From: Unio delphinus
Lineage: Eukaryota > Mollusca > Bivalvia > Unionida > Unionidae
Direction of reading: 5' to 3'
NCBI GenBank assembly: GCA_029339505.1
Contig: JAQISU010000118.1
Span: 5,073,501-5,137,500 of the forward strand
Length of the DNA: 64,000 bases
Shown here: one piece after another, positions 1,761-60,229 of the stretch
Layout of the letters: every line of letters starts with the position of its first letter
Numbering within the stretch: position 1 is the stretch's first letter
Program-made: the position numbers and the translations under genes
The notes under the pieces: generated by a model
What the model was told of the DNA's origin: nothing
Database searches by the model: none
Seen by the model: only the letters and a program-made list of their open reading frames with translations

Positions 1761-1860
1761 GTGTAGAACATGCTATGGTAATATGTAAGGCACAGGTTAT
1801 CATGCAGCTGACATAACCTTCTTGTACAGTAACATGACATATCTGAATTTATGTAAACAG

Positions 1861-2060
1861 GCCTCTGGACACAGGGTGTCACTCAGGTGACATAAATTAA
1901 ACCTTATTTTACACCAACACAACATACCTGTACTTTGTGTTGTAGAGAAGCCTCTGGACACAGGGTGTCAGTCAGGTGACATAAATTAAACCTCATTTTA
2001 CACCAACACAACATACCTGTACTTTGTGTTGTAGACAAGCCTCTGGACACAGGGTGTCAA
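1861..2060. repeat. 89-bp tandem repeat that includes an exon end and splice donor
   Basis: The segment starting gcctctggacacagggtgtc occurs at 1861, 1950 and 2039, giving a period of 89 bp. The intervening block carrying acatacctgtactttgtg occurs twice. On the minus strand that block is the 3' end of the CH-domain exon plus its donor (ACAG then GTATGT). The exon end has therefore been tandemly copied downstream into the intron. The second donor copy lies at 1928/1927. Confidence 0.9.
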
Positions 2061-2166
2061 TCAGCTGACACAAGACCTGTCCCTCCTGCAGGGTAACCAC
2101 ATTTGCTTCACCCTCACTTTTTGGCCTTACATCACTTAGAACTGAGTTCACCCAGTTCATGTACAC
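2017..2166 (-). CDS. Internal exon encoding the start of a calponin-homology (CH) domain
   Basis: This minus-strand exon has exactly 50 open codons, phase 0 at both ends. The acceptor is a pyrimidine-rich tract ending TATTTTCCAG just above 2166. The donor is ACAG followed by GTATGT below 2017. It reads VYMNWVNSVL at the start and VLCQLIDTL near residues 31-39. The W-V-N-x-x-L motif, then an L-x-x-G-x-x-L-C-x-L-I-x-x-L pattern, is typical of the first helices of a CH domain, an actin- or microtubule-binding fold. The residues before the second motif include an acidic loop. Family knowledge suggests a dixin-type or other N-terminal CH protein, but I cannot assign one. The rest of the CH domain must lie in exons left of the window. 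The exon is boxed between two tandem arrays, one of which contains copies of its 3' end. Confidence 0.75.
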
Positions 2167-2187
2167 CTGGAAAATACAAAGTGGAAT

Positions 2188-3712
2188 AAAGGACTTTATT
2201 ACAGTCTAGTCTTCTTAAATGGGATTTTATTTATATGACTAAAGGACTTTATTACAGTCTAGTCTTCTTAATAGGATTTTCATTTATATGACTAAAGGAC
2301 TTTATTACAGTCTAGTCTTCTTAAATGGATTTTCATTTATATGACTAAAGGACTTTATTACAGTCTAGTCTTCTTAATGGGATTTTCATTTATATGACTA
2401 AAGGACTTTATTACAGTCTAGTCTTCTTAATGGGATTTCATTTATATGACTAAAGGACTTTCTTACAGTCTAGTCTTCTTAATGGGATTTCATTTATATG
2501 ACTAAACAACTTTATTACAGTCTAGTCTTCTTAATGGGATTTCATTTATATGACTAAAGGACTTTATTACAGTCTAGTCTTCTTAATAGGATTTCATTTA
2601 TATGACTAAAGGACTTTATTACAGTCTAGTCTTCTTAATGGGATTTCATTTATATGACTAAAGGACTTTATTACAGTCTAGTCTTCTTAATAGGATTTTC
2701 AATTATATGACTAAAGGGCTTTCTTACAGTCTAGTCTTCTTAATGGGATTTCATTTATATGACTAAAGGACTTTATTACAGTCTAGTCTTCTTAATAGGA
2801 TTTTCATTTATATGACTAAAGGACTTTATTACAGTCTAGTCTTCTTAATAGGATTTTATTTATATGACTAAAGGACTTTCTTACAGTCTAGTCTTCTTAA
2901 TGGGATTTCATTTATATGACTAAAGGACTTTATTACAGTCTAGTCTTCTTAATAGGATTTTCATTTATATGACTAAAGGACTTTATTACAGTCTAGTCTT
3001 CTTAATAGGATTTTATTTATATGACTAAAGGACTTTCTTACAGTCTAGTCTTCTTAATGGGATTTTCATTTATATGACTAAAGGACTTTATTACAGTCTA
3101 GTCTTCTTAATAGGATTTTCATTTATATGACTAAAGGACTTTATTACAATCTAGTCTTCTTAATGGGATTTTATTTATATGACTAAAGGACTTTATTACA
3201 GTCTAGTCTTCTTAATGGGATTTTATTTATATGACTAAAGGACTTTATTACAGTCTAGTCTTCTTAATGGGATTTTCATTTATATGACTAAAGGACTTTA
3301 TTACAGTCTAGTCTTCTTAATGGGATTTTATTTATATGACTAAATGACTTTATTACAGTCTAGTCTTCTTAATAGGATTTTATTTATATGACTCAAGGAC
3401 TTTATTACAGTCTAGTCTTCTTAATAGGATTTTATTTATATGACTAAAGGACTTTATTACAGTCTAGTCTTCTTAATGGGATTTTCATTTATATGACTAA
3501 AGGACTTTATTACAGTCTAGTCTTCTTAATGGGATTTTATTTATATGACTAAAGGACTTTATTACAGTCTAGTCTTCTTAATGGGATTTTATTTATATGA
3601 CTAAAGGACTTTATTACAGTATAGTCTTCTTAATGGGATTTTCATTTATATGACTAAAGGACTTTATTACAGTATAGTCTTCTTCATGGGATTTTCATTT
3701 ATATGACTAAAG
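2188..3712. repeat. 51-53-bp minisatellite, about 29 copies
   Basis: The unit starts ggactttattacagtctagt, continues with cttcttaat, and ends with tatatgactaaa. Units differ by one or two bases in the ggatttt(ca)ttta segment, which gives several subtypes in mixed order. The array begins only about 22 bp above the acceptor of the CH-domain exon on the minus strand, so it occupies the 3' end of that intron. Confidence 0.95.
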
Positions 3713-3738
3713 TCAATAGTAGGTTGATCCTTTGGTAA

Positions 3739-4425
3739 ACAAGTGATCATTGACAATGCCAACAAACCAAGATTTGGCAAGCTAATAATCATTGACAATG
3801 CCAACTGACCAAGATTTGGCAAACTAGTGATTGTTGACAATGGCTATTGACCAAGCAGCATAAGACAGTGATCACTGACATTACCAAATGACAAGCACTG
3901 TGAGATAGTAATCACTGACAATGCCAATTGACAAAGCTATGACATGCTAGTAATTGTTAACAATGGCAACTGACCAAGCTTTGGCAAGCTAATAATCACT
4001 GACAATGCCAACTGATTAAGAATTGTGTGGCAGTAATCACTGACAATGCCAACTGACCAAGTTTTACAAGCTAGTAATCAATGCCAACTGATCAAGATTT
4101 GACAAGCTAGTGATCACTGACAATAACTACTGACCAAACATTGGCAAGCTATTTATTACTGACAATGCCATTGGATCAGGCTTTGATAAGGTATTAATCA
4201 CTAACAATGCCAATTAACCAAGCTCTGGCAATCTAGTGTACACTGAAAATGTCAATTGGACAAGCTAGTAATCACTGACAATACCAACTGACCAAACAGT
4301 ATGAGAAAGTCATCTTTAACAATGGCAACTGACCAAGTTTTGGCAAGCTAGTATCACTGACAATGCTAACAGACCAAGCTCTGGCAAGCAAGTGACCACC
4401 AACACTGCTAACTGACCATGCAATG
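3739..4425. repeat. Degenerate 42-43-bp minisatellite, about 15 copies
   Basis: Diverged units share the cores actgacaatgccaactgacc and tttggcaagctagtaatc. Indels are frequent, so the period wanders around 42-43 bp. It looks older than the neighbouring 53-bp and 33-bp arrays. The minus-strand frame at 4272-4574 is not a gene. Confidence 0.88.
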
Positions 4426-5287
4426 TGAAGGATCCTCTTAGCCATGTGAATCAGGTTATATATATTTAATTCCATTACATAATATTGTATTTGTAACTTT
4501 TTATAAAAACTAGATTTGACATTTTCCAGAAATTCAGTTAAGATCTGTTTGACCTGACTGTTTTTTATAATCAACTAATAGAAACTTTGTGTCTAATGCT
4601 GACCTAATTCCTGGCCTTGATTCAGAACCAGTGAGAGTTAAAGTAAACAACCTCTTTTATTTTTTCTCAGAGTAAGATTCATAAAGTAATAAAGGCCATA
4701 CTTGGAGTATGTAATAAATAACTTGCATCAATTAGGTTTTTTTTCCGGTGGACTGAACCATATCTGGGCATCTGTTTTGCATCTTAGATAGATTTATTAT
4801 TGATGTTTTGAGAAAGAATAGTCATTACTTGCCATAACCACTGGAGATGTCCAGGTGTTTTAAATTGTAACCAGTTCTTGGGGCTAATTATTTTATTTTC
4901 TTCAAATTATTTGGATTCCAACAGATTATTTATCCCTGGAAATACTTGTGCATTAAATTATTTCTTGGACAAGGACAGGTATCGAAATTTGAATCAAATT
5001 CAAACACTGGAATATTATTTTCTGTAATTCAACAAAGAACTGTTGACACATCAGTACAAGTTGTCCATAGCACATGTCATCACCTTCCATTTTGGATTTC
5101 AATGGTATTCAAACAGTTTCATCAGAACATTTTATTACTAGGACTTCAATTTTTTAATTCATGGATTATTTTTGGAATTGATTCATAAAACCATAAGTTC
5201 TTTGTCTCAATTTTACCGTTTTTCTACGGAATAAAATATTTGTAATTTTTTTTACAAAGCTTGTTGTCTTTAGTCTTATCTTGTTAC
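4426..5287. other. Non-repetitive AT-rich intron sequence
   Basis: About 860 bp of unique sequence between two arrays. It contains an 80-codon plus-strand frame (4946-5188) with no recognisable motif, no convincing splice sites and low CpG. I see nothing functional that I can support. Confidence 0.45.
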
Positions 5288-8035
5288 TCACACTGCCATA
5301 CAATACAATGGATTGAATAATCGCACTGCCATACAATGCATTGGACTGAATACTCACACTGCCATACAATGCATTCGACTGAATACTCACAATGCCATAC
5401 AATGCATTGGACTGAATACTCACACTGACATACAAAGCAATGGACTGAATATTCATATTGCCATGGAGTGAATATTCACACTGCCATACAATGCAATGGA
5501 CTGAATAATCACAATGCCATACAATGCAATGGACTAAATACTCACACTGCCATACAATGCAATAAACTGAATACTCACAATGCCATACCATGCAATGGAC
5601 TGAATACTCACACTGCCATACAATGCAATGGATTGAATATTCACACTGCCATACAATGCAATGGACTGAATACTACACTGCCATACAATTCAATGGATTG
5701 AATACTCACACTTCCATACCATGCATTGGACTGAATACTCACACTGCCATACAATTCAATGGATTGAATATTCACACTGCCATACCATGTAATGGACTGA
5801 ATACTCATACTGCCATACAATGCAATGGATTGAATACTCACACTGCCATATAATACAATGGATTGAATATTCACACTGCCATACAATATAATGGACTGAA
5901 TATTCACACTGCCATACAATGCAATGGACTGAATACTCACACTGCCATACAATCCAATGGATTGAGTATTCACACTGCCATACAATATAATGGACTGAAT
6001 ACTCTCACTGCCATACAATGCAAAGGATTGAATACTCCCACTGCCATACAATGCAATGGACTGAATATTCACACTGCCATACCATGTAATGGACTGAATA
6101 TTCATACTGCCATACAATGCAAAGGACTGAATACCCACACTGCCATACAATACAATGGACTGAATATTCACACTGCCATACAATGTAATGGACTGAATAC
6201 TCACACTGCCATACGATGCAATGGACTGAATACTCACACAGCCATACAATGCAATGAACTTAATACTCACACTGCCATACCATGCAAATGACTGAATACT
6301 CACACTGCCATACGATGCAATTGAGTGAATACTCACACTGCCATACAATACAATGGATTGAATAATAACACTGCCATACAATGCATTGGACTGAATATTC
6401 ACACTGCCACAATGCAATGAACTGAATACTCACACTGCCATACAATGCATTGGACTGAATACTCACACTGCCATACAATGCAATTGACTGAATATTCACA
6501 TTGCCATGGACAGAATACTCACACTGCCATACAATGTAATGGACTGAATAATCACAATGCCATACAGTTCAATGGACTGAATACTCACACTGCCATAAAA
6601 TGCAATGGACTTAATACTCACACAGCCATACAATGTAATGGACTGAATACTCACACTGCCATACAATGCAATGGACTGAATACTCACATTGCCATACAAT
6701 GCAATGGACTGAATATTCACACTGCCATACCATGCAATGGACTGAATACTCACACTACCATACAATGCAATGGACTGAATATTCACACTGCCATACCATG
6801 CAATGGACTGAATACTCACACTGCCATACAATGCAATGGACTGAATATTCACACTGCCATACAATGCAATGGACTGAATACTCACACTGTCATACCATGC
6901 AACGGACTGAATACTCACAATGCCATACAATGCAATAGACTGAATACTCACACTGCCATACAATGCAATGGACTGAATATTCACACTGCCATACCATGCA
7001 ATGGACTGAATACTCACACTGCCATACAATGCAATGGACTGAATATTCACACTGCCATACCATGCAATGGACTGAATATTCACATTGCCATGGACTGAAT
7101 ACTCACACTGCCATACAATGCAATGGACTGAATACTCACACTGCCACAATGCATTGGACTGAATACTCACACTGCCATACCATGCAATGGACTGAATACT
7201 CACACTGCCATACAATGCAATGGACTGAATACTCACACTGCCATACAATGCAATGGACTGAATATTCACACTGCCATACCATGCAATGGACTGAATACTC
7301 ACACTGCCATACAATGCAATGGACTGAATACTCACACTGCCATACAATGCAATGGACTGAATATTCACACTGCCATACCATGCAATGGACTGAATACTCA
7401 CAATGCCATACAATGTAATGGACTGAATACTCACACTGCCATACAATGCATTGGACTGAATACTCACGCTGCCATACAATGCAATGGACTGAATACTCAC
7501 AATGCCATACAATGCAATGGACTGAATATTCACACTGCCATACAATGCAATGGACTGAATACTCACAATGCCATACAATACAATGGATTGAATAATCACA
7601 TTGCCATGGACTGAATACTCACACTGCCATACAATGCAATGGACTAAATACTCACACTGCCACAATGCATTGGACTGAATACTCACACTGCCATACAAAG
7701 TAATGGACTGAATACTCACACTGCCATAAAATGAAATGGACTGAATACTCACAATGCCATACAATGCAATGGACTGAATACTCACAATGCCATACAATGC
7801 AATGGACTGAATACTCACACTGCCATACAATGCAATGGACTGAATATTCACATTGCCATGGACTGAATACTCACACTGCCATACAATGTGATGGACTGAA
7901 TACTCACACTGCCACAATGCATTGGACTGAATACTCACACTGCCATACACTGCCATACAATGCAATGGACTGAATACTCACAACGCCATACAATGATTTG
8001 ATACAATGATACAATGCAATGGACTGAATACTCAC
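5288..8035. repeat. 33-bp minisatellite, about 83 copies, open in several frames
   Basis: The unit is gccatacaatgcaatggact plus gaatactcacact, 33 bp long. Because 33 is eleven codons, several frames stay open. The plus strand reads an 11-residue repeat around HTAIQCNGLNT. The minus strand reads one around GSVSIQSIALY, including a 489-codon frame at 6496-7965. Shortened units that lose 'tacaatgcaatg' recur (for example near 6493, 7087, 7603 and 7855) and mark a higher-order pattern. Nothing supports translation: frames are open on both strands and there is no unique flanking coding sequence. Confidence 0.95.
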
Positions 8036-8336
8036 CTGCTTTAGTAAAGTATTCTGTATAATGAGTCATAAAGCAAACCCCCAAAGATACATTTGAAAAA
8101 TAAATCAATTAATTTGCTGAACTTTACGTCTGAAAAACAAAATTAATTATTTTTTTTGATCTATTATAAAAAAGCAAGCATTTTACTGATTACACCATCT
8201 AATTTCATAGGTACCACCTACCTATGCTGCAAACAACTGTAATGAATTTCACATTTCATTAAAATAAATCATAAGCAATGACTGGCATTAAGCTGAACAG
8301 GAAGGCAAAACTAAACTCATAAGCACATACACACAG
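8036..8336. other. Unique AT-rich sequence
   Basis: About 300 bp between two arrays. No coding, RNA or repeat feature is seen. Confidence 0.4.
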
Positions 8337-8625
8337 ACATAAATCTAGGAGTAAAATCAGGTTTTAAAAAAATATTTTGATTACATAAAACTAGGAGTAA
8401 AACCAGGTTTTAAAAACATATTAGTTTGATTACATAAATCTAGAAATAAAATCAGGTTTAAAAAAATATTTTGATTACATAAATCTAAGAATAAAATCAG
8501 TTTTTAAAAATAGGATTTTGATTACATAAATCTAGAAGTAAAAATCAGGTTTTAAAAAAATAATTTTGTGATTACATAATTCCAGGAGTAAAATCAGGTT
8601 TCTAAAAATATTATTATTTTGATTG
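8337..8625. repeat. About 46-bp minisatellite, six copies
   Basis: Units begin acataaatctaggagtaaaa and continue tcaggttttaaaaa, ending in ttttgatt. Length varies by a few bases through changes in the A-run. Confidence 0.88.
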
Positions 8626-8817
8626 TTGGCATACCAGCACAAACATTGCCTATTCATGTTCACTAAGAAATGTTTACAACATGAATTTGATTTGGGCATT
8701 TTTACATGACTATCCCAAAATCAGAGATTAAACTAATGGAAAGATATTTTACAAAGAATTCAATGGGAATCCATGATATACTATAACACCTTCAGATATT
8801 AATATATTTATAAATGC

Positions 8818-8916
8818 ATCATGAGTTCAAACCCAGCCAGACTCAAACTAAAAATGTTTAAGAATGGTACTAGCCAGTGTTCAGCATTTTTTAAGCTACA
8901 TTAAAAATCCAAAATG
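8818..8916 (+). mobile_element. Internally deleted SINE remnant
   Basis: The segment has a decayed B-box-like gagttcaaaccc and the linker aatggtacta. It then jumps to gttcagcatt and straight to the tail aagctacattaaaaatcca. These blocks occur in the same order in the full SINE copies at 27.6 and 28.3 kb, where about 180 bp more lies between them. I read it as an old copy with a large internal deletion. Confidence 0.65.
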
Positions 8917-8963
8917 CACACATTTATAAATCACTTTCAAACAAAAATTATGTGTATGTATAA

Positions 8964-8965
<2 letters not shown>

Positions 8966-9028
<63 letters not shown>

Positions 9029-9058
9029 CGTGTATGTGCGTGTGCATGCATTCGTGTG
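8966..9058. repeat. (GT)n microsatellite
   Basis: A pure GT run from 8966 to about 9024, then an imperfect tail with gcgtgcg and gtgcatgc. Confidence 0.97.
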
Positions 9059-9112
9059 TTGAAGGGTTAGGTGTGCAGTTAGGATAATTCAACCTGATAG
9101 GATAAGATATTT

Positions 9113-9550
9113 GTCAGTGCTGAGTCTTTGATAACACAGTTCATTGTCAGGGCCAAGTCTTTGATAAAACAGTTCATTGTCAGGGCCAAGTCTTTAATAA
9201 CACAGTTCATTGTCAGGGCCAAGTCTTTGATAACACAGTTCATTATCAGTGACTTGTCTTTGATAGCACAGTTCATTATCAGTGCCAAGTCTTTGATAAC
9301 ACAGTTCATTGTCAGTGACTTGTCTTTGATAACACAGTTCACTGTCAGTGCCAAGTATTTGATAACACAGTTTATTGTCAATGCCAAGTCATTGATACCA
9401 CAGATCATTGTCAGTGCCAAGTCTTTGATAACACAGTTCATTGTCAGTGACTTGTCTTTGATAACACAGTTCATTGTCAGTGCCAAGTCTTTGATAACAC
9501 AGTTCATTGTCAGTGACTTGTCTTTGATAACACAGTTCATCGCCAGTGGT
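9113..9550. repeat. Second, unrelated 33-bp minisatellite, about 13 copies
   Basis: The unit is cagttcattgtcagtgccaa plus gtctttgataaca. Two subtypes (gtgccaag and gtgacttg) alternate in the second half. Frames stay open on both strands (plus 9128-9559, minus 9079-9540) because the period is eleven codons. Sequence composition differs from the 33-bp array at 5288-8035. Confidence 0.93.
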
Positions 9551-22614: not shown

Positions 22615-23790
22615 TTGGAACATTCTTGTTAATTTGACAATGTTGCGTAAAAACACAGGTTGTCAGAAACTTTTATTTGAGAAATACGCCTGCCTTGTGC
22701 AAAAATACAGCTAGTTTCCAATGAGAATTGTAAAAGTTTGCTAGAATAATCTTAAACTCTCTTCAAGAGCTTCATAAAGGATTCAAAAAATAAATAAAGG
22801 ATATGAACATTTCTTACGCAGGATTTAACGGTATCCAACAGAAACTCACAAGACAGAAACTTAATGTCAATTTCTCATTGTCTTATGACGTCACTAAATA
22901 AATATTTGGCAGCCTACGTTATTTCATTGTACAGTTATAATTAAAGAGAGTATGTGAACAGTACAAGGGATGGTAGTTTTCTTGAAGAAAAGTATGATAA
23001 GATCAAGAAACAGGTGGTACGAGTCTGATGAAAACAAATTAAAAAATATTTCCTAACTCTCGGAAAGAGAAATTACACAGATATCACAATGTAAGGATTG
23101 ATTAAGGAAGATATAAGAAATTTAAGGTATATTAAATCAACATAAATAATTTTATGACAAAATTATAAAAAGCGGAAACTACGATATTTTGCAAACTCAT
23201 AAACTTCTTTTTGACATTGATAGAATAACATCTTTCGACTCGGCTTGATGGGATTTTTGGGGCAATTATATGAAATCATGTAAGTCTAGAGAACCCACTA
23301 GTCACTGATTCAAAATATTGTGTAATTAAGGCAACCGTGTAAATTTTGAATTACTTTGCATTAGTTTCTGATCTATACTGTCATGGTTTAAAATCAGATG
23401 CCATTCGACTAAGAAATATTAATAAAATGTTAATGGGAACAAAAATATGTCCAAAGTTGATATTAACTGATTAAAGTCCAATTATATTTTATTGTGAGTA
23501 TGTTTCTCTTTGAACTTGGAGGGTACGGTATAAATTAATTATTGCGCGAGGTTGGAATAAAGAAACTGCTTGGCTGGCGGAGCAAAAGAAATGTATCACT
23601 CTTTGGAAAAAATTACTTTGCTAGAAACTTTTAATTCTTGATTTTGCCTAGATTCTTTCATCTTTTTCAGCTTATCCACCCGAAATAGAAAACGAACTGA
23701 GGATATTATGTTTTTAGTTTATTTAGGGTGCTTAAATTGAGAGAGATACAAGATACACCCTGAAAACTTCTTTTAACCAATGGATATTAC
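22615..23790. other. Intergenic DNA, no gene seen
   Basis: AT-rich unique sequence with normal CpG frequency. A palindromic cAMP-response-element-type site (tgacgtca) lies at 22885-22892, without other promoter evidence. Confidence 0.4.
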
Positions 23791-23817
23791 GTAATGTTCA
23801 CTAGTAAATCATGGGTG

Positions 23818-24260
23818 GATTTAGGGTCATATCATAGTTATGGGCGCCCATATGCTAACATGCTGGGTCATAGGGGAAATCCTATCTTAAAATTGTCCTT
23901 AAGGGTAAATTGTAACATTGTTAGAGTTTACCTCAATATGCGCCGCCATAGGTACATATGTGAAATCATGTGTTAGCATTATCGTTGAGTTAACATGGGA
24001 ATGGCCTAATGGGGGTCAGACCTGTTTATAGGGTCAACTATTTTAGAGGGGTAAATAGGAATGAAAATGTTAAAAGTCTGAGCTATAATCCAAGACATCA
24101 CATATAATACCCAAGCACACGACATCTACATATTCCAGCACCATCATTTTGATTACTATCAAACAATCCAGTATACCACATATATTATCAAACAACCACT
24201 TTTAATATACTATCCATCAACTAGTTTTATGACAACGTACTATCCAACACCCACTTTTTA
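23818..24260 (+). repeat. Left terminal inverted repeat of the Polinton-like element
   Basis: Moving inward, the blocks are a tip at 23818-23842, ggaaatcctat at 23875, cgccgccatagg near 23941, aacatgggaatgg near 23993, and several complements of gttggatagta between 24170 and 24246. All recur in inverted order on the right side. Alignment by eye suggests roughly 65-75% identity with indels. The tip matches the 37-bp satellite unit in 22 of 25 positions. Confidence 0.65.
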
Positions 24261-24426
24261 TGACCAAGCAACACACGTCGCTCTTTATTGGAAAAGCATG
24301 CGCTTATGTGGAAGTGAAAAAATGACCAAGATCGATAGGAGAAGTGTGAAAGTGCATGTCCATAGACTTTTCGTTTTAAATCATTACAAACCAAGACAAC
24401 GCCATTTCCTGGTTAAAACATATATT

Positions 24427-24427
24427 T

Positions 24428-24465
<38 letters not shown>

Positions 24466-24520
24466 ATAATAATAATAATAATTAGAAGAAGAAGAAGAAG
24501 AAGAAGAAGAAGAAGAAAGA
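24427..24520. repeat. Compound (TAC)n-(AAT)n-(AGA)n microsatellite
   Basis: Three trinucleotide runs abut at about 24427-24465, 24464-24481 and 24484-24519. They create poly-L, poly-I and poly-R frames on the plus strand and poly-F on the minus strand, which are artefacts. Confidence 0.97.
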
Positions 24521-24537
24521 GGAGGAGTAGGGTGAAG

Positions 24538-24897
24538 AGAAGCACACACCAACAATTTCCAAAAAGCTGTCCACGAACAGTGAGTCAAACGCAGTAAAGT
24601 CCTCAGGTATCAATTCTTTATAATTTGTGTTTTTTCTCAGCTGATTATAAGTAATCAAATCACACCTGACGCTTACTTTGAAAACTTCTGCCAAGTTAGT
24701 CGATTAACCATGGATAGTTTCTGTACTCTGTTGCGAAAGAGCATCGAAGCGATTGATCCCCAGAGAAGTCATTGGATGTAAGGAATGGTCACGCAAGTCT
24801 GTCTTTCTGTCACTTTCCCGAAATCTTTTTTATCGGATATGAGAGTCCGTGCTTCTTCCAGATAATATTCCAGCTTTTCTTCTGGATTCAACGTCAT
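24538..24897 (-). pseudogene. Broken small gene of the Polinton-like element, unknown function
   Basis: A minus-strand frame of 42 codons (24897-24769) starts MTLNPEEKLEYYLEEARTLI and has even, protein-like composition. Further minus-strand coding-like sequence follows in another frame (24694 to about 24540), containing YNQLRKNTNYKELIPEDF, before running into the microsatellite. A shift and stops separate the two. They lie just downstream of the capsid-like gene in the same direction, so they probably belong to the same element. I do not recognise the family. Confidence 0.4.
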
Positions 24898-25020
24898 ACG
24901 TTGTCGTGCTGTGTATGACTAATATGTTTGATTAGACACCCATAACAATACAATATTCTTGTTCCATCTTTGTTTCTAAAATCATTTCTCTCAAACTGTT
25001 AATTTTAAGACTAATGCTAA

Positions 25021-25692
25021 ATTCTAAAAGATGAAGTTCAATGTGTTGTCCATAACTACTGCTAAATGGTGTTCTACAAGAAGGTGGCCCGATTTTATAG
25101 GACGGAAATGTCCCTGGTCCCTGCCTTCGAATAAAATGAAATCCCCATAAAACATAACATTCCGCATAACCGTTGTGCGAAATATCGTGACTGCTGTTGG
25201 TATATCACTGTCGAGTGACTTCAAACAGTGTCAGGTAAGAGCTCAAGTATTTTTTCTGGGCAAAGTTAGGTTCAAAGTGTCTGTTATACAACGTTTAGCC
25301 ATCTGGAGAGACTTCTATACTTGACACGTTAAGGTGTTGAAATTCGGAAGGATTTTGATCGATAACTCCGTTGAGGGTCGCATTGCTGCCGATGCCATTG
25401 AAAAAAACGTTATCTTTGATCTTAGGTCGGCGTCCAGAGGCAATGGTGAACGAGTTAACTTCCACAGGTCGTATCGCTTAATTTGGTGTCGTTCTGTTCA
25501 AAGTGTAACAGATGTCTCCCACTTTAGGTAAACGTCCAAGCGTTCTACATAGAATCGAGCTTCCTCGATGATGAGTTTTCACTCATTAACATTGGCAATT
25601 AAATGGAATACGGCATTAATTCGATTTAGTCACAGGCGCACGTCCATTTCATACAGCAGATACTTGCCGTGCAGCGACATGTACAAATGTAA
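25021..25692 (-). pseudogene. Broken capsid-like gene of Polinton/Maverick type
   Basis: One minus-strand frame (25692-25315) holds three internal stops, with coding-like sequence between them. It includes KYLLYEMDVRL near 25660 and EEARFYVERLDVYLKW near 25555. After a shift, two overlapping frames (25316-25021) carry a Y-L-x-S-Y-L-x-L-F-E motif, a D-I-S-x-x-x-Y block and GHFRPIKSGHL. From memory, these motifs in this order match the protein annotated as 'F54H12.2-like' in many invertebrate genomes. I associate that protein with Polinton capsids. The order of conserved blocks is right, but stops and shifts make the copy non-functional. No reconstruction was attempted. Confidence 0.55.
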
Positions 25693-26640
25693 TCAATTCA
25701 TCAGTTCTAAACTGTGACGAAACAGTTTGATTTTCTTTCGACGACTGTTAGATCCAGCATTGTTAAAGTCGGCAGCATCTGTCAATTCTGTGTCTTTGGA
25801 GACATCCACGTTGTCTCCTTTCATGGTGCCTTTGGGACATAAAGTGCTTTGTTCTGAAAATATATTGTAGAATATAATGTTCATTGTATCCCGATAAATT
25901 GTCACCATATGATAACGATAGCAGTCCTCGTAACGATGAATGACCTCTTCGCTCCAAATGTCGTCAGTGGAGTCTGATATCGATTCGGCCAAATCGGAAA
26001 TAGTGCGGGGTCCCTGAAATATTTTTTCCAATCCTCCGGGATTCTTAATACGATTGGCACAATACAATATAAGTTGATGTATGCACTTCTCGCAGGCCCG
26101 ATGAGCTACAAAGAAATTAGGGATGTGAATGTAGGTCTCTTGCGTGCATTCAAAATACAAAATGATATGGAAAACCACTTGTTTCTTTTATGTCTTGTGC
26201 TGATATTCCTTCTGGTCTTCCTCCAGTTAATTGTCATAATTTGCGGGTGGTATTTGATGTTAAAGTCCACGAACTGGTCACAAAAACTATGACACGGGTT
26301 AAACACATTGATCATGGAAGTTGCTAATTTGGACGATATATACTACGTTTGTTTTTATGAATGTCATCCACTAATAACGTTTCTACACGGCATGCTACAT
26401 TTAGAAGGTGAAACTTTGTACATATGAAGGTGGTGTTTCCATTAGGCATGTTAATCTCGTCATTGGATGTGCTGAATGTTGTCGATAACTTTAGAGGCTG
26501 TTGTTTCTGCCGGTGTACTAAACTCAATCCAGACGGTGGAATTCAATGTCGTGATGAATGGAGAGTCTCGAATGATCGTCCTCTTGCTGTTGTCATTTCA
26601 GTGTTGCTAACAAGGAATTCCTCATATCTGTGATGAAACC
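25693..26640 (-). pseudogene. Upstream broken coding fragments of the Polinton-like element
   Basis: The frame at 26178-25693 (161 codons) has an H-R-A-C-E-K-C motif at about residues 27-33 and a basic end (SRRKKIKLFRHSLELMN). It runs in the same frame into the capsid-like segment, with one TGA between. Above it, coding-like pieces in other frames appear at 26315-26106 and 26527-26324, with more up to about 26640. Even composition suggests one gene or two adjoining genes broken by indels and stops. Function is not recognised. The pieces may include the N-terminal part of the capsid-like protein. Confidence 0.4.
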
Positions 26641-26725
26641 TTCTACTTTCTGAGGTCTCACTTCAGATTTGAACTCATTAATTTTTACTGTGCAGGAGCA
26701 AATCTCTCTGATAACAGTTTTGCAG

Positions 26726-27140
26726 GAGTTATTCGAAGGTATAACTCAAATAAGAATATGGACTAAGCTACCTCATAAGGGAAAGGTCAAATTTTAGGAG
26801 AATGAACATCGAGATCCGGAATGCAAACAACGTCAAAGCAAAGGAAGGACATGGAAATGGATATACAGAGGTAAAGATGCATGATATCATTGTCAAGGGA
26901 ATAAACATTTGTCTTCAGAGTGTCCTAAGATAAAAGAGGACAAGCAAGGGAAGAAGAAGAAGCAGGAGAAAGAGGAAAACATGTAATCAGAATAAGAAGA
27001 AGAACCCATCCCCGTCAAGAAATGCACGAAATCAAGGTCACAAGAAGAAACGGTAGAAGAGGAAGAACCCATGGCATTGAATAAATTAGAAAATGAGACA
27101 GACGCAAAAGAATGAAAGAAATTAGAAAATGAATTCTTTT
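26726..27140 (+). pseudogene. Zinc-knuckle (gag/ORF1-like) fragment
   Basis: A plus-strand frame reads ELFEGITQIRIWTKLPHKG and then, after a stop, continues to YHCQGNKHLSSECP at about 26885-26926. This fits C-x2-C-x4-H-x4-C, except that the first cysteine position is a TGA. A lysine/glutamate-rich tail follows. An I-x-x-W-T-x-x-P segment before a CCHC knuckle is typical of LINE ORF1 or gag-like proteins. It lies on the opposite strand to the capsid-like gene and may be a separate insertion. The overlapping minus-strand frame is a shadow. Confidence 0.5.
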
Positions 27141-27609
27141 GATGTGTTGTGAAATTTGTATTGTGATTCAAAATAGAGAATATACCAATAACAACGTAAC
27201 TGTCACTTTGTCTTAATGTTGTTTACTACAGATAAGTGATATAAATACGCACTTACGCACATATATCATCAAATCATGGGGAAAAGGGATTTTGGATAAT
27301 GTTAATCGAATACAGGGTAGAAGAGGTGATGTTTTGGATATAATGTTTTCTTTCACAATACGTTTGGAATAGTTTTTTTGGGGTGTTGGATAGTATTGGT
27401 CTTGTTTGTGTCATTTTAAAACATTTAACATGTATTCTTATGATAGGTGTATATTTTTAAACACTACACAATATTTTTATGATAGTTTTTTTTATGGAAT
27501 GTTGGATAGTAGATAACTATTACCCTTGGTAAAGTATCGTAGATCCTGAAAGACTGTCGACTCTTTGAAGCCATACACTTTCGACTCTTCCCCCCCCCCC
27601 CGTTGTATT
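27141..27609. other. Inner right flank of the Polinton-like element
   Basis: No coding sequence is seen. It contains several gttggatagta-like blocks resembling the inner part of the inverted repeats, and a run of 12 C at 27590-27601 just before the LINE/SINE insertion. Confidence 0.45.
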
Positions 27610-27623
27610 TCCCTTACTAGTTC

Positions 27624-27941
27624 AACAGCTCCGGTGGCCTAGTGGTTAGATCATCTGCCGCTGAAGCGGGAGGTCGTGGGTTCGATCCCCGGCCGAGTTC
27701 ATACCAAAAACTTACAAAAATGGTACTAACAGCTGCCTCGCTTGGTGCTCAGCATTAAGAGGTTAGTGTTAGGACTGGTCGGCCTGGTGTCAGGATAATT
27801 TGACTGTGTGGGACATCTGTGGCATGATGGCCTAGTGCTAGACATAGCTATGAACTGCCTCATTGCAGACATCGTAGCGATATGACTGAAAAATTGTTAA
27901 AGCTATGTTGAAAATCCCAATCAAACAAACAAACAAACAAA
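27624..27941 (+). mobile_element. SINE at the 3' edge of the LINE
   Basis: Full length with a tRNA-like head: A box tggcctagtgg at 27635-27645 and B box ggttcgatccc at 27679-27689. The core and a (caaa)n tail follow. It begins immediately after the LINE's left 14-bp repeat and ends against the LINE 3' end, tail to tail. A diverged form of the same target (tcccttcaattcaa, 27942-27955) follows its tail. It may have used the same site before the LINE did. Confidence 0.9.
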
Positions 27942-28051
27942 TCCCTTCAATTCAATTTCAATTTGATCCCGAAGTTTCCATCCAATCAGCGTGGTCGGAG
28001 TTGATAGGAGACTGGGTGCTGCTCGAAAATTGCCCGTGCAGATGAAGTAAC

Positions 28052-30282
28052 TTATTTCTTTCCACCATTTTCGGTCCCGTGTGGCATTTTCTCTGGCATG
28101 TGCCGAGGTCTTTTTCCACTTGTTGGATCCAGGTTTTTTAGGTGCATTTCTTGAGACCTTCCAGGTCTCCGGTCTGGTGCGTCACAGGGCTCGATACAGT
28201 AGACGCCTCTCTTCCATTCGGCAGACATGGCCAAACCAGCGAAGCCTAGCACGTCTAATCAGTGATTCCACCGTCCACGTTTGGGATTCTGTCCAGAAGG
28301 TTTACTCCCAGTATTCGTCTGAGGCAGCGCAACGGCTCCGGTGACCTAGTGGTTAGAGCGTCCGCCCCGGAAGCGGGAGGTCGTCGGTTCGATCCCCGGC
28401 CGAGTCATACCAAAGACTTACAAAAATGGTACTAACAGCTGCCTCGCTTGACGCTCAGCATTAAGAGGTTAGTGTTAGGACTGGTCGGCCTGGTGTCAGG
28501 ATAATATGACAGGGTGAGACATCATGCTACATGTCAGTGGCCTGATGTCTCAGTGCTAGACATCACTATAAACTGCCTCACTGCAGACATCGTAGCGATA
28601 TGACTGAAAAATTGTTAAAGCTACGTTAAAAATCCTAAACAAACAAACAAACAAACAAACAAACTGAGGCAGCGCATTTGAAATACCTACAGCTTCTTGA
28701 GGTCCGCGTCTAGGAGGACCCACGTCTCTGCTCCATATAGGAGTATTGGGAGGATGAGAGTGCGGTATAGACGCACTTTGGTCACCACCGAGAGGGCCTT
28801 TTTCCTCCATATGCACCAAGCTAGTGACCCGAACGCAGACGTTGCCAGTCCCAGGCGATGCGAGATGTCGGTGGAGGCCGCTATAGATCTGCTTCGGATT
28901 ATGGACCCCAGGTATTTAAATTCCTCCACTTGCTGAAGATAGACTCCATTAAGGCAGACGGTCACAGGGGTGTTGTCCGATGTCATGACAACTGTTTTGG
29001 CGATGTTGATCTTTAACCAAAATCTGGCGGCTTCATCGGCGATTTCTTGCAGAATTTCTGTTGCTTCGACTTCGTCCTAAGTGAGAAAGGCACTATCGTC
29101 CGCAAACATTAGATCTGTGGCATGTTCATCGAACCATGCCCCAAAAGTGATCCTTCTACGTCCCAGGAATACCTTGCGCAGGACACAATCGACCACGATG
29201 TTAAGGAGGCTAGGTGAGAGCACGCATCCCTGACGAACGCCCGTTTTCACCGAGAAATCCTTCGTGTTTGCCCCTTGGATTCGAACTTGACTGGTTGACC
29301 CGTCATAGATGTTGGTAAGTAGCCGAATGTATTTTGGCGGGTATCCTTCCTCTTCCAGGGCTTTCCACAAGGCCGGGCGATGGATGCTGTCAAACGCTGC
29401 GGATAAATCAATGAACACCATGATTGTGCGTTTTCCACACCGAATTCTTTCCTCGAGGATTTGACGGAGCGTGAAGATCTGGTCGCAGCAGTTTCTTCCA
29501 GGTCGAAAACCTGCCTGTGCATCTCGTGCCGCTTCCCCCCGCCGTTTGAGTACCCTATGGATGATCTTCATAAATACTTTGCCAAGTATGGAGAGCAGGC
29601 TGATGCCCCGATAGTTCTTAAAGTCCTTTTTGTCGCCTTTCTTGAAGATTGGTACGATGATGACTTTCTTTCATGCTGTTGGTACCGCTTTCGATTGCCA
29701 TGTCAATCTCAGCAGGGCGTGTAATCTTTCGAGGATGATCTCTCCGCCGTATTTCAAGGGTTCTGGTGTCACTTCATCCATGCCCGGCGCCTTGTTGTTC
29801 TTCAGGTCTAAGATGGCAGTCCTTATTTCCTTCATAGACGATTCGGACTCATCAACTAGCGCAGATAACTCGTCCATGGCGTCCACCGATTCCATCGGTC
29901 CAGGGGGAGGGGGGGGGGGGCGTTGTGGTTGAGAAGGGTGCAGAAGAAGTCCTGCCAGCGGTCCAAACGTCCTGTGTTGGAGCTAATGAATTTTCCGGTC
30001 TTGTCTTTGATGTTTTTCTCAAACGGCCGAGATTTCCCGGCTAGTCGTCAAATGGTTGAGTAAAGGGTTTGGAATTCGTTCCGGTTGGCTGCCACTTCCA
30101 TATCTTTTGCGAGATCTTCCCAATACACGGCTCTATCCTCCTTCAAATGAACTCTGCCCAGTTTGTTGAGGCGTCTATATTCCGGTTGGTTATTTAACTT
30201 GCATTTCTTCCGTTTATCGATGAGAAACAAGATCTTTTTTTCGGATATCCAGGGTTGAACGTGCCGCTTCGTTGATGGACAC
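28052..30282 (-). pseudogene. LINE reverse transcriptase, broken by stops and a SINE
   Basis: On the minus strand, in order: a linker segment with VYWEDLAKDMEVAANRNEF (about 30130-30070), KDKTGKFI (about 29990), and the first RT block KAPGMDEVTPEPLKYGG (about 29790). Next are VPIFKKGD (about 29640), the palm with motif A AFDSI (about 29390), RQGCVLSP (about 29225) and catalytic FADD (about 29095). The thumb carries EFKYLGSII (about 28925). After the SINE comes the C-terminal RLRWFGHV region (about 28235). The main frame has a TGA near 29669 and a TAG near 29082. A run of G at 29903-29920 marks a shift relative to the linker frame. The catalytic residues are intact, so decay is recent. The endonuclease is lost by 5' truncation. 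The clade is not assigned. Confidence 0.9.
28332..28663 (+). mobile_element. SINE nested in the LINE, perfect 13-bp target duplication
   Basis: The head has A box tgacctagtgg (28342-28352) and B box ggttcgatccc (28386-28396). The 260-bp core is shared with the other copies, and the tail is aaagctacgttaaaaatcc with (aaac)n. Exact 13-bp repeats ctgaggcagcgca flank it at 28319-28331 and 28664-28676. It splits the LINE polymerase frame after the thumb region, so it is the youngest event in this nest. The head could fold like a tRNA, but it is not a functional tRNA gene. Confidence 0.93.
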
Positions 30283-30296
30283 TCCCTTACTAGTTC

Positions 30297-31167
30297 TAGA
30301 TAATAATTAAAATGTCGTGATGGATTGTATATGTACTGTTTTTGGATGGTAATCAAAAGGTTGGTGTTGGATTGTACGATGATTGTTTGAAATGTAACAA
30401 AAAGTAGGTTCTGGATACTAATTTTTTTAAAAAATGTGCGTTGGATATTAACAATACATTTTTCGTACGTCCCCATAAAATGTTTCAGTATGGAAATTTG
30501 CAATGGCAATTACAAAGTTACCATTATATTTTCCATTGTCCCCATAACCACTTTCCCCCCAATAAACAAGTTTGTCATTCTAAATAGGTATGTCTCTAAA
30601 ATACCATCCCCATGTTAAACCTGTATACAAACTTAACATAACGATTTCTCATACGTAAATAAGGTGGCTCATAATGAGGTCAGTTCCAACGATTTTACTA
30701 TGTCATCCCAACTGAGGCGAGCCACCTGTAACACTGGTACCATTTGTCTCCACAAACACTGTTGTTCCTAAAGTAGCAATTATACTTTAAACTGGTGGAC
30801 AAATATAACATAGGATTCCTGTGTGTCCCCTAAGAGTCCCCGGAATGTAACCCCTGTGAGCTAATGTTCATTCCTATGTGTCTCTCGATCGTCACATATA
30901 AATACTTGTGTGCATTCTTAAAAATTAAAACTTGGATGTTGCAGTGTTGGATGTGTGTTTGGAAAGTATAAAAAGTATGTGCTGAATTGTATTTGTAATG
31001 ATTTGGATTGTAGATGCAATAATGTATGTTCGACCTTATAAACATGTCTCACCATATCAGCACAGTTAACCTATACACACCTCTGACCCTATAATTCCAG
31101 CCCCTGTCGAACATATTGACCCATTTAACATAGGATTTCCAGTAAGACTCTACAGGTGCTACCACAC
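30297..31167 (-). repeat. Right terminal inverted repeat of the Polinton-like element
   Basis: It is the inverted counterpart of 23818-24260, with extra internal sequence. A second partial run of the same blocks (attcctatgtgtc, ccttataaacatgtctc) near 30860-31060 suggests a duplication inside the repeat. The outer end passes without a break into the 37-bp satellite at about 31168. Small frames here (30048-30618, 30830-31045) are not genes. Confidence 0.6.
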
Positions 31168-32094
31168 AATAATCAATGTGCTCCTACTGAACTGTGATAT
31201 TACCCAAAATCAATGTGCTCCTACTTAACTATGATATTACCCAAAATTAACGTGCTCCTACTTAACTATGATATTACCAAAAATCAACGTGCTTCTACTT
31301 AACTATGATATTACCCAAAATCAATGTGCTCCTACTTAACTATGATATTACCCGAAGTCAAAGTGCTACTACTTAACTATGATATTACCAAAAATCAACG
31401 TGCTTCTACTTAACTATGATATTACCCAAAATCAAAAGTGCTCCTACTTAACTATGATATTACCAAAAATCAACGTGCTTCTACTTAACTATGATATTAC
31501 CCAAAATTAACGTGCTACTACTTAACTATGATATTACCAAAAAATCAACGTGCTTCCACTTAACTATGATATTACCCAAAATCAATGTGCTTCTACTTAA
31601 CTATGATATTACCAAAAATCAACGTGCTTCTACTTAACTATGATATTACCCAAAATCAAAAGTGCTCCTACTTAACTATGATATTACCCAAAATTAACGT
31701 GCTCCTACTTAACTATGATATTACCCAAAGTTAATGTGTTGCTGCTTAACTATGATATTACCGAAAATTAGCGTGCTCCTACGTAACTATGATATTACCA
31801 AAAATCAACGTGATTCTACTTAACTATGATATTACCCAAAATCAAAGTGCTCCTACTTAACTATGATATTACCAAAACTCAATGTGATTCTACTTAACTA
31901 TGATATTACCCAAAATCAATGTGCTCCTACTTAACTATGATATTACCCAAAATTAACGTGCTCCTACTTAACTATGATATTACCCAAAAATAACGTGCTC
32001 CTACTTAACTATGATATTACCCAAAATCAATGTGCTTCTACTTAACTATGATATTACCCAAAGTCAAGGTGCTGCTGCTTAGCTATGATATTAC

Positions 32095-36500: not shown

Positions 36501-39500
36501 AATGTGCTCCTACTTAACTATGATATTACCCAAAATTAACGTGCTCCTTTTTAACTATGATATTACCCGAAGTCAATGTGCTGCTGCTTAACTATGATAT
36601 TACCCAAAATCAAAAGTGCTCCTACTTAACTATGATATTACCAAAAATCAACGTGCTTCTACTTAACTATGATATTACCCAAAATCAATGTGCTCCTACT
36701 TAACTATGATATTACCCGAAGTCAAAGTGCCTCTACTTAACTATGATATTACCAAAAATCAACGTGCTTCTACTTAACTATGATATTACTCAAAATCAAA
36801 AGTGCTCCTACTTAACTATGATATTACCAAAAATCAACGTGCTTCTATTTAACTATGATATTACCCAAAATTAACGTGCTCCTACTTAACTATGATATTA
36901 CCAAAAATCAACGTGCTTCTATTTAACTATGATATTACCCAAAATCAATGTGCTCCTACTTAACTATGATATTACCAAAAATCAACGTGCTTCTACTTAA
37001 CTATGATATTACCCAAAATCAAAAGTGCTCCTACTTAACTATGATATTACCCAAAATCAATGTGTTGCTGCTTAACTATGATATTACCGAAAATTAGCGT
37101 GCTCCTACGTAACTATGATATTACCAAAAATCAACGTGATTCTACTTAACTATGATATTACCCAAAATCAAAGTGCTCCTACTTAACTATGATATTACCA
37201 AAACTCAACGTGATTCTACTTAACTATGATATTACCCAAAATCAATGTGCTCCTACTTAACTATGATATTACCCAAAATTAACGTGCTCCTACTTAACTA
37301 TGATATTACCCAAAATTAACGTGCTCCTACTTAACTATGATATTACCCAAAATCAATGTGCTTCTACTTAACTATGATATTACCCAAAATTAACGTGCTT
37401 CTACTGAACTATGATATTACCCAGAGTCAATGTGCTGCTGCTTAGCTATGATATTACCCAAAGTCAATGTGCTTCTACTTAACTATGATATTACCAAAAA
37501 TCAATGTGCTCCTACTTAACTATGATATTACCCAAAATCAATGTGCTCCTACTTAACTATGATATTACCCAAAATCAAAGTGCTTCTACTTAACTATGAT
37601 ATTTCCCAAAGTCAATGTGCTGCTGCTTAACTATGATATTACCAAAATCAATGTGCTTCTACTTAACTATGATATTACCCAAAATCAATGTGCTCCTATT
37701 TAACTATGATATTACCCAAAATTAACGTGCTCCTACTTAACTATGATATTCCCAAAAATCAAAGTGCTTCTACTTAACTATGATATTACCCAAAATCAAA
37801 AGTGCTCCTACTTAACTATGATATTACCCAAAATTAACGTGCTCCTACTTAACTATGATATTACCCAAAATTAACGTGCTCCTACTTAACTATGATATTC
37901 CCAAAAATCAAAGTGCTTCTACTTAACTATGATATTACCCAAAATCAAAAAGGGCTCCTACTTAACTATGATATTACCCAAAATTAACGTGCCCTACTTA
38001 CCTATGATATTACCCAAAGTCAATGTGTTGCTGCTTAACTATGATATTACCGAAAATTAGCGTGCTCCTACGTAACTATGATATTACCGAAAATCAACGT
38101 GATTCTACTTAACTATGATATTACCCAAAATCAATGTGCTCCTACTTAACTATGATATTACCAAAAATCAACGTGCTTCTACTTAACTATGATATCACCC
38201 AAAATCAATGTGCTCCTAATTATCTATGATATTACCCAAAATCAAAGTGCTCCTACTTAACTATGATATTAACCAAAATCAACGTGCTTCTACTTAACTA
38301 TGATATTACCCAAGATTAACGTGCTTCTACTTAACTATGATATTACCCAAAATCAAAGTGCTCCTACTTAACTATGATATTACCAAAAATCAACGTGCTT
38401 CTACTTAACTATGATATTACCCAAAATCAGTATGCTTCTACTTACCTATGATATTACGCAAAGTCAATGTGCTTCTACTTAACTATGATATTACCAAAAA
38501 TCAACGTGCTTCTACTTAACTATGATATTACCCAAAGTCAATGTGCTCCTACTTAACTATGATATTACCCGAAGTCAAAGTGCTCCTACTTAACTATGAT
38601 ATTACCAAAATTAACGTGCTCCTACTTAACTATGATATTACCCAAAATCAATGTGCTCCTACTTAACTATGATATTACCCAAAATTAACGTGCTTCTACT
38701 TAACTATGATATTAACCAAAATCAATGTGCTCCTACTTAACTATGATATTACCCAAAATTAACGTGCTTCTACTTAACTATGATATTACCCAAAGTCAAT
38801 GTGCTCCTACTTAGGGGGCGCTCACTAGTAAGTATGTGTTTTTCGGATAGTGATGTATGTAAGGTGAAGTTTTTTGCATTTGTAACATGCACAATGGAGA
38901 TAATGTTGGCATATCTCAATGCTACTTTGATGTAATGTGGCTGATATTTCTTTGAATACTGCACTTGTGAAAATTGTATATGATCTAAGCACATGGTATA
39001 ACAAAATGAATGCTTCCATGTGCTTGAAATATTTGCCAGAATTAATCAAAAGTACACTAACTTTAGCAGTTATTAAACTAGGGAAAACGAATTTTGCTGA
39101 AGTAGTCAATAGCAGCTTCTGAAATTGCAATGAACAAATTACAAAACATCTGAAAAGTAATAAATAGTTATCGGACAATTTTTCTACAATTTACCTCTGA
39201 AGTCCAGGAAGTGAAAATGACCATGCGGAGCTAGCAGTTTTTTTTACATGAGCACATCTTAAGTTAGCCCAAGCTGTATACTCTAGAACCTAAAGTACAC
39301 CCATCAATCATACACAAAAAAGTGAATTGAAAGTTCTTCTCCCAACACCTAAGATATACAAAGTCTTTATTATATTGCCAGTATAACCAGTGAAGAAATC
39401 CCAGAAAATTATTTTTCTTTAAAATTCTAACCCTATGCAAAGTACGAAACTGTAGAGCGCCACCTTAACTATGATATATCCCAAAATTAACGTGCTTCTA

Positions 39501-42500
39501 CTTAACTATGATATTAACCAAAATCAACGTGCTCCTACTTAACTATGATATTACCTGAAGTCAATGTGCTCCTACTTAACTATGATATTTACCAAAATCA
39601 ACGTGCTCCTACTTAACTATGATATTACCTGAAGTCAATGTGCTCCTACTTAACTATGATATTACCTGAAGTCAAAGTGCTCCTACTTAACTATGATATT
39701 ACCTGAAGTCAATGTGCTCCTACTTAACTATGATATTACCTGAAGTCAATGTGCTCCTACTTAACTATGATATTACCCAAAAATAACGTGCTTATACTTA
39801 ACTATGATATTACCCAAAGTCAATGTGCTCCTTCTTAACTATGATATTACCCAAAATCAATGTGCTTCTACTTAACTATGATATTACCCAAAGTCAATGT
39901 GCTCCTACTTAACTATGATATTACCCAAAATCAATGTGCTTCTACTTAACTATGATATTACCCAAAATCAACGTGCTTCTACTTAACTATGATATTACCC
40001 AAAGTCAATGTGCTCCTACTTAACTATGATATTACCCAAAATCAATGTGCTTCTACTTAACTATGATATTACCCAAAGTCAATGTGCTCCTACTTAACTA
40101 TGATATTACCAAAAATCAACGTGTTCCTACTTAACTATGATATTACCCAAAGTCAATGTGCTCCTACTTAACTATGATATTACCCAAAATTAACGTGCTC
40201 CTACTTAACTATGATATCAACCAAAATCAATGTGCTCCTACTTAACTATGATATTACCAAAAATTAACGTGCTCCTACTTAACTTTGATATTACCCAAAG
40301 TCAATGTGCTCCTACTTAACTATGATATTACCCAAAATTAACGTGCTCCTACTTAACTATGATATTACCCAAAGTCAATGTGCTCCTACTTAACTATGAT
40401 ATTACCCAAAATTAACGTGCTCCTTCTTAACTATGATATTACCCAAAATCAATGTGCTTCTACTTAACTATGATATTACCCAAAGTCAATGTGCTCCTAC
40501 ATAACTATGATATTACCCAAAATTAACGTGCTCCTACTTAACTATGATATCAACCAAAATCAATGTGCTCCTACTTAACTATGATATTACCAAAAATTAA
40601 CGTGCTCCTACTTAACTTTGATATTACCCAAAGTCAATGTGCTCCTACTTAACTATGATATTACCAAAAATTAACGTGCTCCTACTTAACTATGATATTA
40701 CCCAAAGTCAATGTGCTCCTACTTAACTATGATATTACCCAAAATTAACGTGCTCCTTCTTAACTATGATATTACCCAAAATCAATGTGCTCCTACTTAA
40801 CTATGATATTATCCAAAATTAACGTGCTTCTACTTAACTATGATATTAACCAAAATCAATGTGCTCCTACTTAACTATGATATTACCAAAAATTAACGTG
40901 CTCCTACTTAACTATGATATTACCCAAAGTCAATGTGCTCCTACTTAACCATGATATTACCAAAAATTAACGTGCTCCTACTTAACTATGATATTACCCA
41001 AAGTCAATGTGCTCCTACTTAACTATGATATTACCCAAAAATAACGTGCTTCTACTTAACTATGACATTACCCAAAATCAAAAGTGCTCCTACTTAACTA
41101 TGATATTACCAAAAATCAACGTGCTTCTACTTAACTATGATATTACCCAAAATCAATGTGCTCCTACTTAACTATGATATTTCCCGAAGTTAATGTGCTG
41201 CTGCTTAACTATGATATTACCCAAAATTAACGTGCTTCCACTTAACTATGATATTACCCAAAACCAAAGTGCTCCTACTTAACTATGATATTACCAAAAA
41301 TCAATGTGCTTCTACTTAACAATGATATTACCCAAAATCAATGTGCTCCTACTTAACTATGATATTACCCGAAGTCAAAGTGCTACTACTTAACTATGAT
41401 ATTATCAAAAATCAACGTGCTTCTACTTGACTATGATATTACCCAAAATCAAAAGTGCTCCTACTTAACTATGATATTACCAAAAATCAACGTGCTTCTA
41501 CTTAACTATGATATTACCCAAAATTAACGTGCACTTACTTAACTATGATATTACCAAAAATCAACGTGCTTCTACTTAACTATGATATTACCCAAAATCA
41601 ATGTGCTCCTACTTAACTATGATATTACCAAAAATCAACGTGCTTCTACATAACTATGATATTACCCAAAATCAAAAGTGCTCCTACTTAACTATGACAT
41701 TACCCAAAATTAACGTGCTCCTACTTAACTATGATATTACCCAAAATCAATGTGTTGCTGCTTAACTATGATATTACCGAAAATTAGCGTGCTCCTACGT
41801 CACTATGATATTACCAAAAATCAACGTGATTCTACTTAACTATGATATTACCCAAAATCAAAGTGCTCCTACTTAACTATGATATTACCAAAACTCAACG
41901 TGATTCTACTTAACTTTGATATTACCCAAAATCAATGTGCTCCTACTTAACTATGATATTACCCAAAATTAACGTGCTCCTACTTAACTATGATATTACC
42001 CAAAATTAACGTGCTCCTACTTAACTATGATATTACTCAAAATCAATGTGCTTCTACTTAACTATGATATTACCCAAAATTAACGTGCTTCTACTGAACT
42101 ATGATATTACCCAAAGTCAATGTGCTGCTGCTTAGCTATGATATTACCCAAAATTAACGTGCTTCTACTTAACTATGATATTACCCAAAGTCAATGTGCT
42201 GCTGCTTAGCTATGATATTACCCAAAGTCAATGTGCTTCTACTTAACTATGATATTACCAAAAATCAATGTGCTTCTACTTAACTATGATATTACCCAAA
42301 ATCAATGTGCTCCTACTTAACTATGATATTACCCAAAATCAATGTGCTTCTACTTAACTATGATATTTCCCAAAGTCAATGTGCTGCTACTTAACTATGA
42401 TATTACCAAAATCAATGTGCTTCTACTTAACTATGATATTACCCAAAATCAATGTGTTCCTATTTAACTATGATATTACCCAAAATTAACGTGCTCCTAC

Positions 42501-60226: not shown

Positions 60227-60229
60227 TTA

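Follow-up and report, generated by a model that had tools for sequence, protein, structure and literature searches.

The window analysed here is a stretch of 64,000 nucleotides from the bivalve Unio delphinus (C126:5073501-5137500, in an assembly of 2.505 Gb and 1,246 contigs). It holds a candidate long-armed DNA transposon, one end of which runs into a large array of a 37-bp satellite while its opposite tip carries a single sequence resembling the satellite unit. We consider it probable, and the best reading of the locus, that the satellite was born from the terminal sequence of the element. Positions are those of the window unless another sequence is named. From left to right the features are:

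22994 to 23817, forward strand: left flank, read as a decayed LINE (long interspersed nuclear element, a non-LTR, or non-long-terminal-repeat, retrotransposon) hosting the element; from blastn and tblastx matches to a stretch of contig C95 (L038)
23818 to 23842, reverse strand: left tip, a single copy of the satellite core (22/25 to the unit)
23858 to 23891, forward strand: box B, an inverted match to 31124-31157 (34 nt, 76% complementary)
23909 to 23967, forward strand: left-arm box A region (25-mer at 23920-23944), 44/59 to the reverse complement of 30643-30701
24082 to 24260, forward strand: left subterminal repeats of the TACTATCCAACACC type (repeat families D7, I1 and I4)
24300 to 27380, no strand: decayed interior without a recognised domain (Pfam search, 9 open reading frame (ORF) pieces)
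27380 to 27510, forward strand: beginning of the right subterminal repeats, interrupted by the nested insertion (repeat families D6, D11 and I18)
27610 to 30296, no strand: apparent later nested insertion (sequence; repeat pair D3-D5; RVT_1)
30297 to 31160, reverse strand: right arm, with subterminal repeats, a box A region and two box B-like copies (left-arm alignment; blastn pieces)
31171 to 64000, forward strand: 37-bp satellite array, running past the window to C126:5153214 (Tandem Repeats Finder, TRF)

The array and the left tip

The array starts at 31171 and stops abruptly at L010:5714, which is C126:5153214, spanning ~48.5 kb. TRF counted 885.7 copies inside the window. Altogether there are 1,171 units, with a spacing of 37 in 1,062 of the 1,170 intervals and a mean identity to the consensus of 0.916-0.945 per 3-kb bin. 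The array has the form that defines satellite DNA, a long head-to-tail run of similar units, and it is longer than the at least 33 kb that the original prediction, made from the window alone, had placed on the right side of the element.

Comparison of 3-kb blocks revealed near-identical segments within the array. The block 37189-40189 is 99.9% identical to its copy at +21416 bp, the block at 43189 is 99.9% identical to its copy at +9881 bp and the block at 49189 is 98.3% identical to its copy at +5144 bp. Such blocks are fitting for local growth and, because of them, recent growth of the array seems to have proceeded by multi-kilobase copying, although an assembly artefact could also have produced them. 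The exact 29-base unit pattern is confined to this locus: all 96 genome-wide matches lie in C126:5105500-5153214 on one strand, and the reversed control gave 0. We therefore rejected a satellite dispersed through the genome as far as exact matches are concerned; this kind of search misses diverged arrays, and the pattern matches 96 of the ~1,171 local units.

We also observed eight copies of a ~650-bp element inside the array, each at the same unit position and with short inverted ends (GGGGGCGCTC/GAGCGCC); in our reading of the alignment, seven stand in one orientation and one is reversed. They occupy gaps at 38775-39466, 60191-60882 and six more up to 76550 (joined coordinates of the window, L009 and L010) and seem to have multiplied together with the array. 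A relative lies at L013:7429-7857 (76% over 437 bp). Some 3 kb beyond the array end, at L010:8520-8740, subterminal-repeat-like sequence of the GGGTGTTGGATAGTA type stands next to a SINE-like (short interspersed nuclear element) copy.

At the opposite end, the left tip (23818-23842) is identical to the reverse complement of the unit at 22 of 25 bases. This match, which the original prediction had reported, was borne out: it was reached in 0 of 200 dinucleotide shuffles of 23800-23899 (best 18), and scores of at least 20/25 to the unit, in either orientation and whatever phase, occur only at starts 23814-23820 in 221,170 bases of non-array DNA (window 1-31170 plus L011-L029). Among the array units, 235 of 1,171 match the tip core at 21 of 23 bases, the top score obtained. 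The other 14 unit bases differ more in the left copy, with three mismatches and a 2-nt gap in the alignment. Read outward, the left end closes ...TAACTATGATATGACCCTAAATC (GACCCTAAATC) and the far end of the array closes ...TAACTATGATATTACCCAAAATC (TTACCCAAAATC); the two terminate in identical phase.

With the array collapsed to a single unit, the right arm and the left tip region aligned over ~95 bp with a score of 42, which none of 2000 shuffles reached (maximum 29). In this alignment box B comes first, followed by a spacer that differs in length and then by the unit. A ggaaatcctat flank had been proposed on both sides; the colinear box is real (box B), but its motif is not specific to the tip, a similar box occurring around 30809 in the right arm (D14) and also in some relatives. 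An outward match past the core, ATGGG//CCCAT (5/7 nt, P 0.012), was not used as an extension of the inverted repeat; the empty site described next suggests that it is LINE flank.

The empty site and the host LINE

The DNA past the far end of the array matches C95, among five matches listed in a genome search. The C95 stretch (L038) also holds the DNA left of the tip, adjoining the far-end flank and in the same orientation. On the left, blastn aligned 22994-23228 with reverse-complement positions 61-304 of L038 (71%) and 23332-23774 with 1131-1573 (73%), and tblastx extended the match to 23802, position 1601 of L038. On the right, L010:5761-5813 aligned with 1649-1702 and L010:5911-6082 with 1846-2024. 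The flank scores against L038 were 219 on the left (shuffle maximum 57) and 117 on the right (maximum 59), with 300 simple shuffles each. Since L038 carries a reverse transcriptase ORF upstream of the flank matches (RVT_1, E 1.7e-25), we read the host of the element as a LINE copy.

Neither the right arm nor the left arm up to 24000 has a match in L038 at E 0.001, and the best 25-mer match of L038 to the satellite is only 17. Because the flanks are contiguous there, with neither arms nor satellite between them, element and array together look like one insertion that interrupts the LINE and whose right edge is formed by the array.

This comparison bears on the possibility that two unrelated neighbours meet here. 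The left part would be a remnant of an element, the satellite would have arisen next to it or been inserted there, and the tip would match by chance. In a simple model, ~11 to 485 chance matches of 22/25 are expected across 2.5 Gb, and some relatives resemble the individual arms more closely than the arms resemble one another. The modelled chance of such a match inside a 500-bp region is, however, ~2e-6 to 1e-4, the empty site places the left and right outer boundaries at a single LINE position and the array ends in the phase of the tip. We regard such a coincidence as quite improbable, and birth of the satellite from the element's terminal sequence remains the reading that we prefer.

The element and its relatives

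Alignment of the arms (23818-24300 against 30297-31250) gave a score of 52, with a maximum of 34 among 500 shuffles (0/500). Arm identity is modest, the two best aligned pieces being 44/59 (75%) and 68/93 (73%). The arm alignment and the empty site support long inverted arms around one insertion, with the caveat that there are relatives that match the arms better.

The box A 25-mer occurs at 15 places in the genome with at most three mismatches (control 0). We examined 14 other arm loci, namely 13 of the 14 other box A places (C214:4012228 was left out) and the relative L023. Relatives on C34 and C57 share interior pieces of 33-248 bp at ~70-85% identity and have right-arm-like pieces downstream, from which we read an element family with ~25-30 bp subterminal repeats. 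C171 carries three closely similar copies of an arm-like segment (L032, L033 and L034), which suggests a more recent subfamily. Over the 500 outward bases, the weak tip scores of L018 (6/300 shuffles), L024 (14/300) and L023 (4/300) were not counted as tips, and L022, L025 and L026 gave no tip score. We considered a decayed tip for L024, the C57 relative, and rejected it; its score outside box B was equalled by 906 of 1000 shuffles.

The original prediction had labelled the element Polinton-like, and a satellite of the same origin could have come from a degraded Polinton/Maverick. Long terminal inverted repeats are common to both, and the decayed interior is partly common to other loci. We searched Pfam with 15 ORF pieces, nine of them drawn from the 27 interior ORFs of at least 50 aa that lie entirely inside 24300-27380, and the other six taken from two relatives. 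None has a Polinton-type domain (polymerase B, integrase, ATPase, protease or capsid), which in a decayed interior is weak evidence. The nine interior pieces gave nothing above the Pfam cut-off (sub-threshold SNAPC1, E 0.027), and other weak or unrelated matches among the 15 were to DUF3915 (E 0.0038, a low-complexity piece) and RVT_1 (E 3e-5, below the cut-off). For a 164-aa piece the protein database returned eight candidates, none at E 0.001. The best arm pieces reach just 73-75% and the interior just ~3 kb. The 6-bp target site duplication of Polintons is not legible either way at the ~73% identity of the empty site. The element ends GATTT...//...AAATC, and the (AGT)2//(ACT)2 or (AG)3//(CT)3 termini of vertebrate Mavericks are absent (PMC8097293; this and the sources below are cited from excerpts). 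We dropped the Polinton-like label and hold a Polinton/Maverick identity to be very unlikely.

Between the right arm and the first of its subterminal repeats lies the nested insertion (27610-30296). It has the 14-bp sequence TCCCTTACTAGTTC as a direct repeat on either side (27610-27623, 30283-30296) and contains a reverse transcriptase piece (RVT_1, E 2.3e-26) and, in our own reading, two probable SINE-like copies. Several other minisatellites lie nearby in the window at 1048-9548, among them a 33-bp array (5285-7953) and a 52-bp array (2187-3712).

Origin of the satellite and known systems

On balance, we think that the outermost ~37 bp of a DNA transposon, present once at the left, became a satellite of ~1,170 copies at the right, at one locus and still bounded by the element terminus and the insertion boundary. 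A long-armed DNA transposon would have entered a LINE copy with a terminal unit of ~37 bp (GATTTnGGGTnATATCATAGTTA..., read inward) at each end, the single tip being ancestral. The right-end unit, starting as one copy, would then have duplicated in tandem and grown via slippage or unequal exchange. Later growth would have copied multi-kilobase blocks, bringing the array to ~1,170 copies, while the left end would have retained one copy. The outermost boundary would have stayed put, as expected if growth was internal. The original claim that the satellite came from the transposon end holds up in part: the array lies within an apparent single insertion, its right boundary at the empty site is in the phase of the left tip, and the 29-mer is found here only. 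The direction from tip to satellite is what we infer, together with the early steps and the recombination mechanism.

Several observations weigh against birth from the tip. The original prediction expected other copies of the element to carry the tip, and 0 of the 14 other arm loci do, the best having 5-6 mismatches over 16 specified positions (six loci) or 7-9 over 21 (eight loci). Because these loci are distant and mostly decayed, the missing tip weakens the birth-from-tip reading without ending it. The arm family itself appears, from its sequences, to be old and varied. The two arms score 80.5 mutually, a value beaten by 5 of 16 relatives with the left arm (maximum 100.5) and by 7 of 16 with the right arm (maximum 135), so that they are not obviously the paired ends of one element and may not be recent twins. 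The collapsed alignment owes its score mostly to the 23-bp core, since with the unit kept and the proximal flank randomized the mean score was 40.0 (42 reached in 15/2000), and with the distal flank randomized it was 38.8 (207/2000); box B and the far flank contribute little. A single empty-site paralogue was found, at 70-83% identity, and at its ~73% identity no clean target duplication is legible. By arithmetic between the anchors, the two flanks put together exceed the empty site by ~14 nt, a surplus that fits a target duplication or small indels.

The satellite may instead have come first. The element would then have carried or captured an existing array, and inverted exchange or conversion between the ends would have placed a copy of one of its units at the left end. 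In keeping with this, the tip is missing from the 14 other arm loci, a DNA search with the tip region 23790-23900 (111 bases) returned itself alone (it is insensitive to short matches, and the array too went unreturned), and the 235 units noted above match the tip core at 21/23. However, no outside source was seen, the exact 29-mer being absent beyond the array, and the remaining 14 unit bases diverge in the left copy, which makes a recent conversion, though not an old one, unlikely. We consider this order of events unlikely and continue to favour birth from the element's tip.

Satellites usually come to notice once they are widespread, and by then their seed and birthplace are difficult to identify. 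If the satellite was indeed born from the tip, a single genome shows it here along with its seed, birthplace and empty site. The insertion boundary lies beside seed and array, and the empty site in the paralogue gives an approximate picture of the locus prior to insertion. Comparison of individuals or sister species could date insertion and growth separately, and probe why one of two similar ends expanded.

A satellite driven by a miniature inverted-repeat transposable element (MITE) was reportedly described in frogs by Scalvenzi and Pollet in 2014, going by their title. Our case likewise links an element with terminal inverted repeats to a satellite. A review, in the parts cited here, names terminal inverted repeats among satellite sources and reports on a MITE in which a captured tandem repeat expanded internally (PMC12628747); the repeat of that MITE is internal, whereas ours lies at the very end. 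Bivalve Helitron/Helentron elements, according to excerpts of two sources (PMC8268682, PMC12628747), likewise carry or seed satellite-like arrays; theirs are central in rolling-circle elements, whereas ours is terminal, next to long inverted arms. A table lists the oyster satellite CgiSat52 as DNA/Polinton (PMC8268682). Among the titles and abstract openings listed in our literature searches, none reports a satellite built from the tip of a Polinton, or one built from an element's terminal unit and shown together with the empty site.

In the foldback transposon Tetris of Drosophila virilis, TIR-220 repeats in the inverted repeats expanded to at most 66 copies within the element (PMC4079207, in excerpt). 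As in Tetris, the array here appears to derive from terminal-inverted-repeat sequence and to lie inside the element, as the 22/25 tip and the empty site suggest. TIR-220, however, is ~220 bp long and was already an internal tandem repeat, whereas the present unit consists of the terminal ~37 bp, with one copy at the left and ~1,171 at the right, and its exact pattern is found at one locus. Because the repeat is absent from the inverted repeats of all 14 other arm loci examined, we do not claim a proven member of the Tetris type; by analogy, the array works like that type. Satellites from transposon inverted repeats thus have a known precedent in Tetris (PMC4079207), and a satellite made of the terminal ~37 bp that still lies within the limits of its insertion counts as a variant of this.

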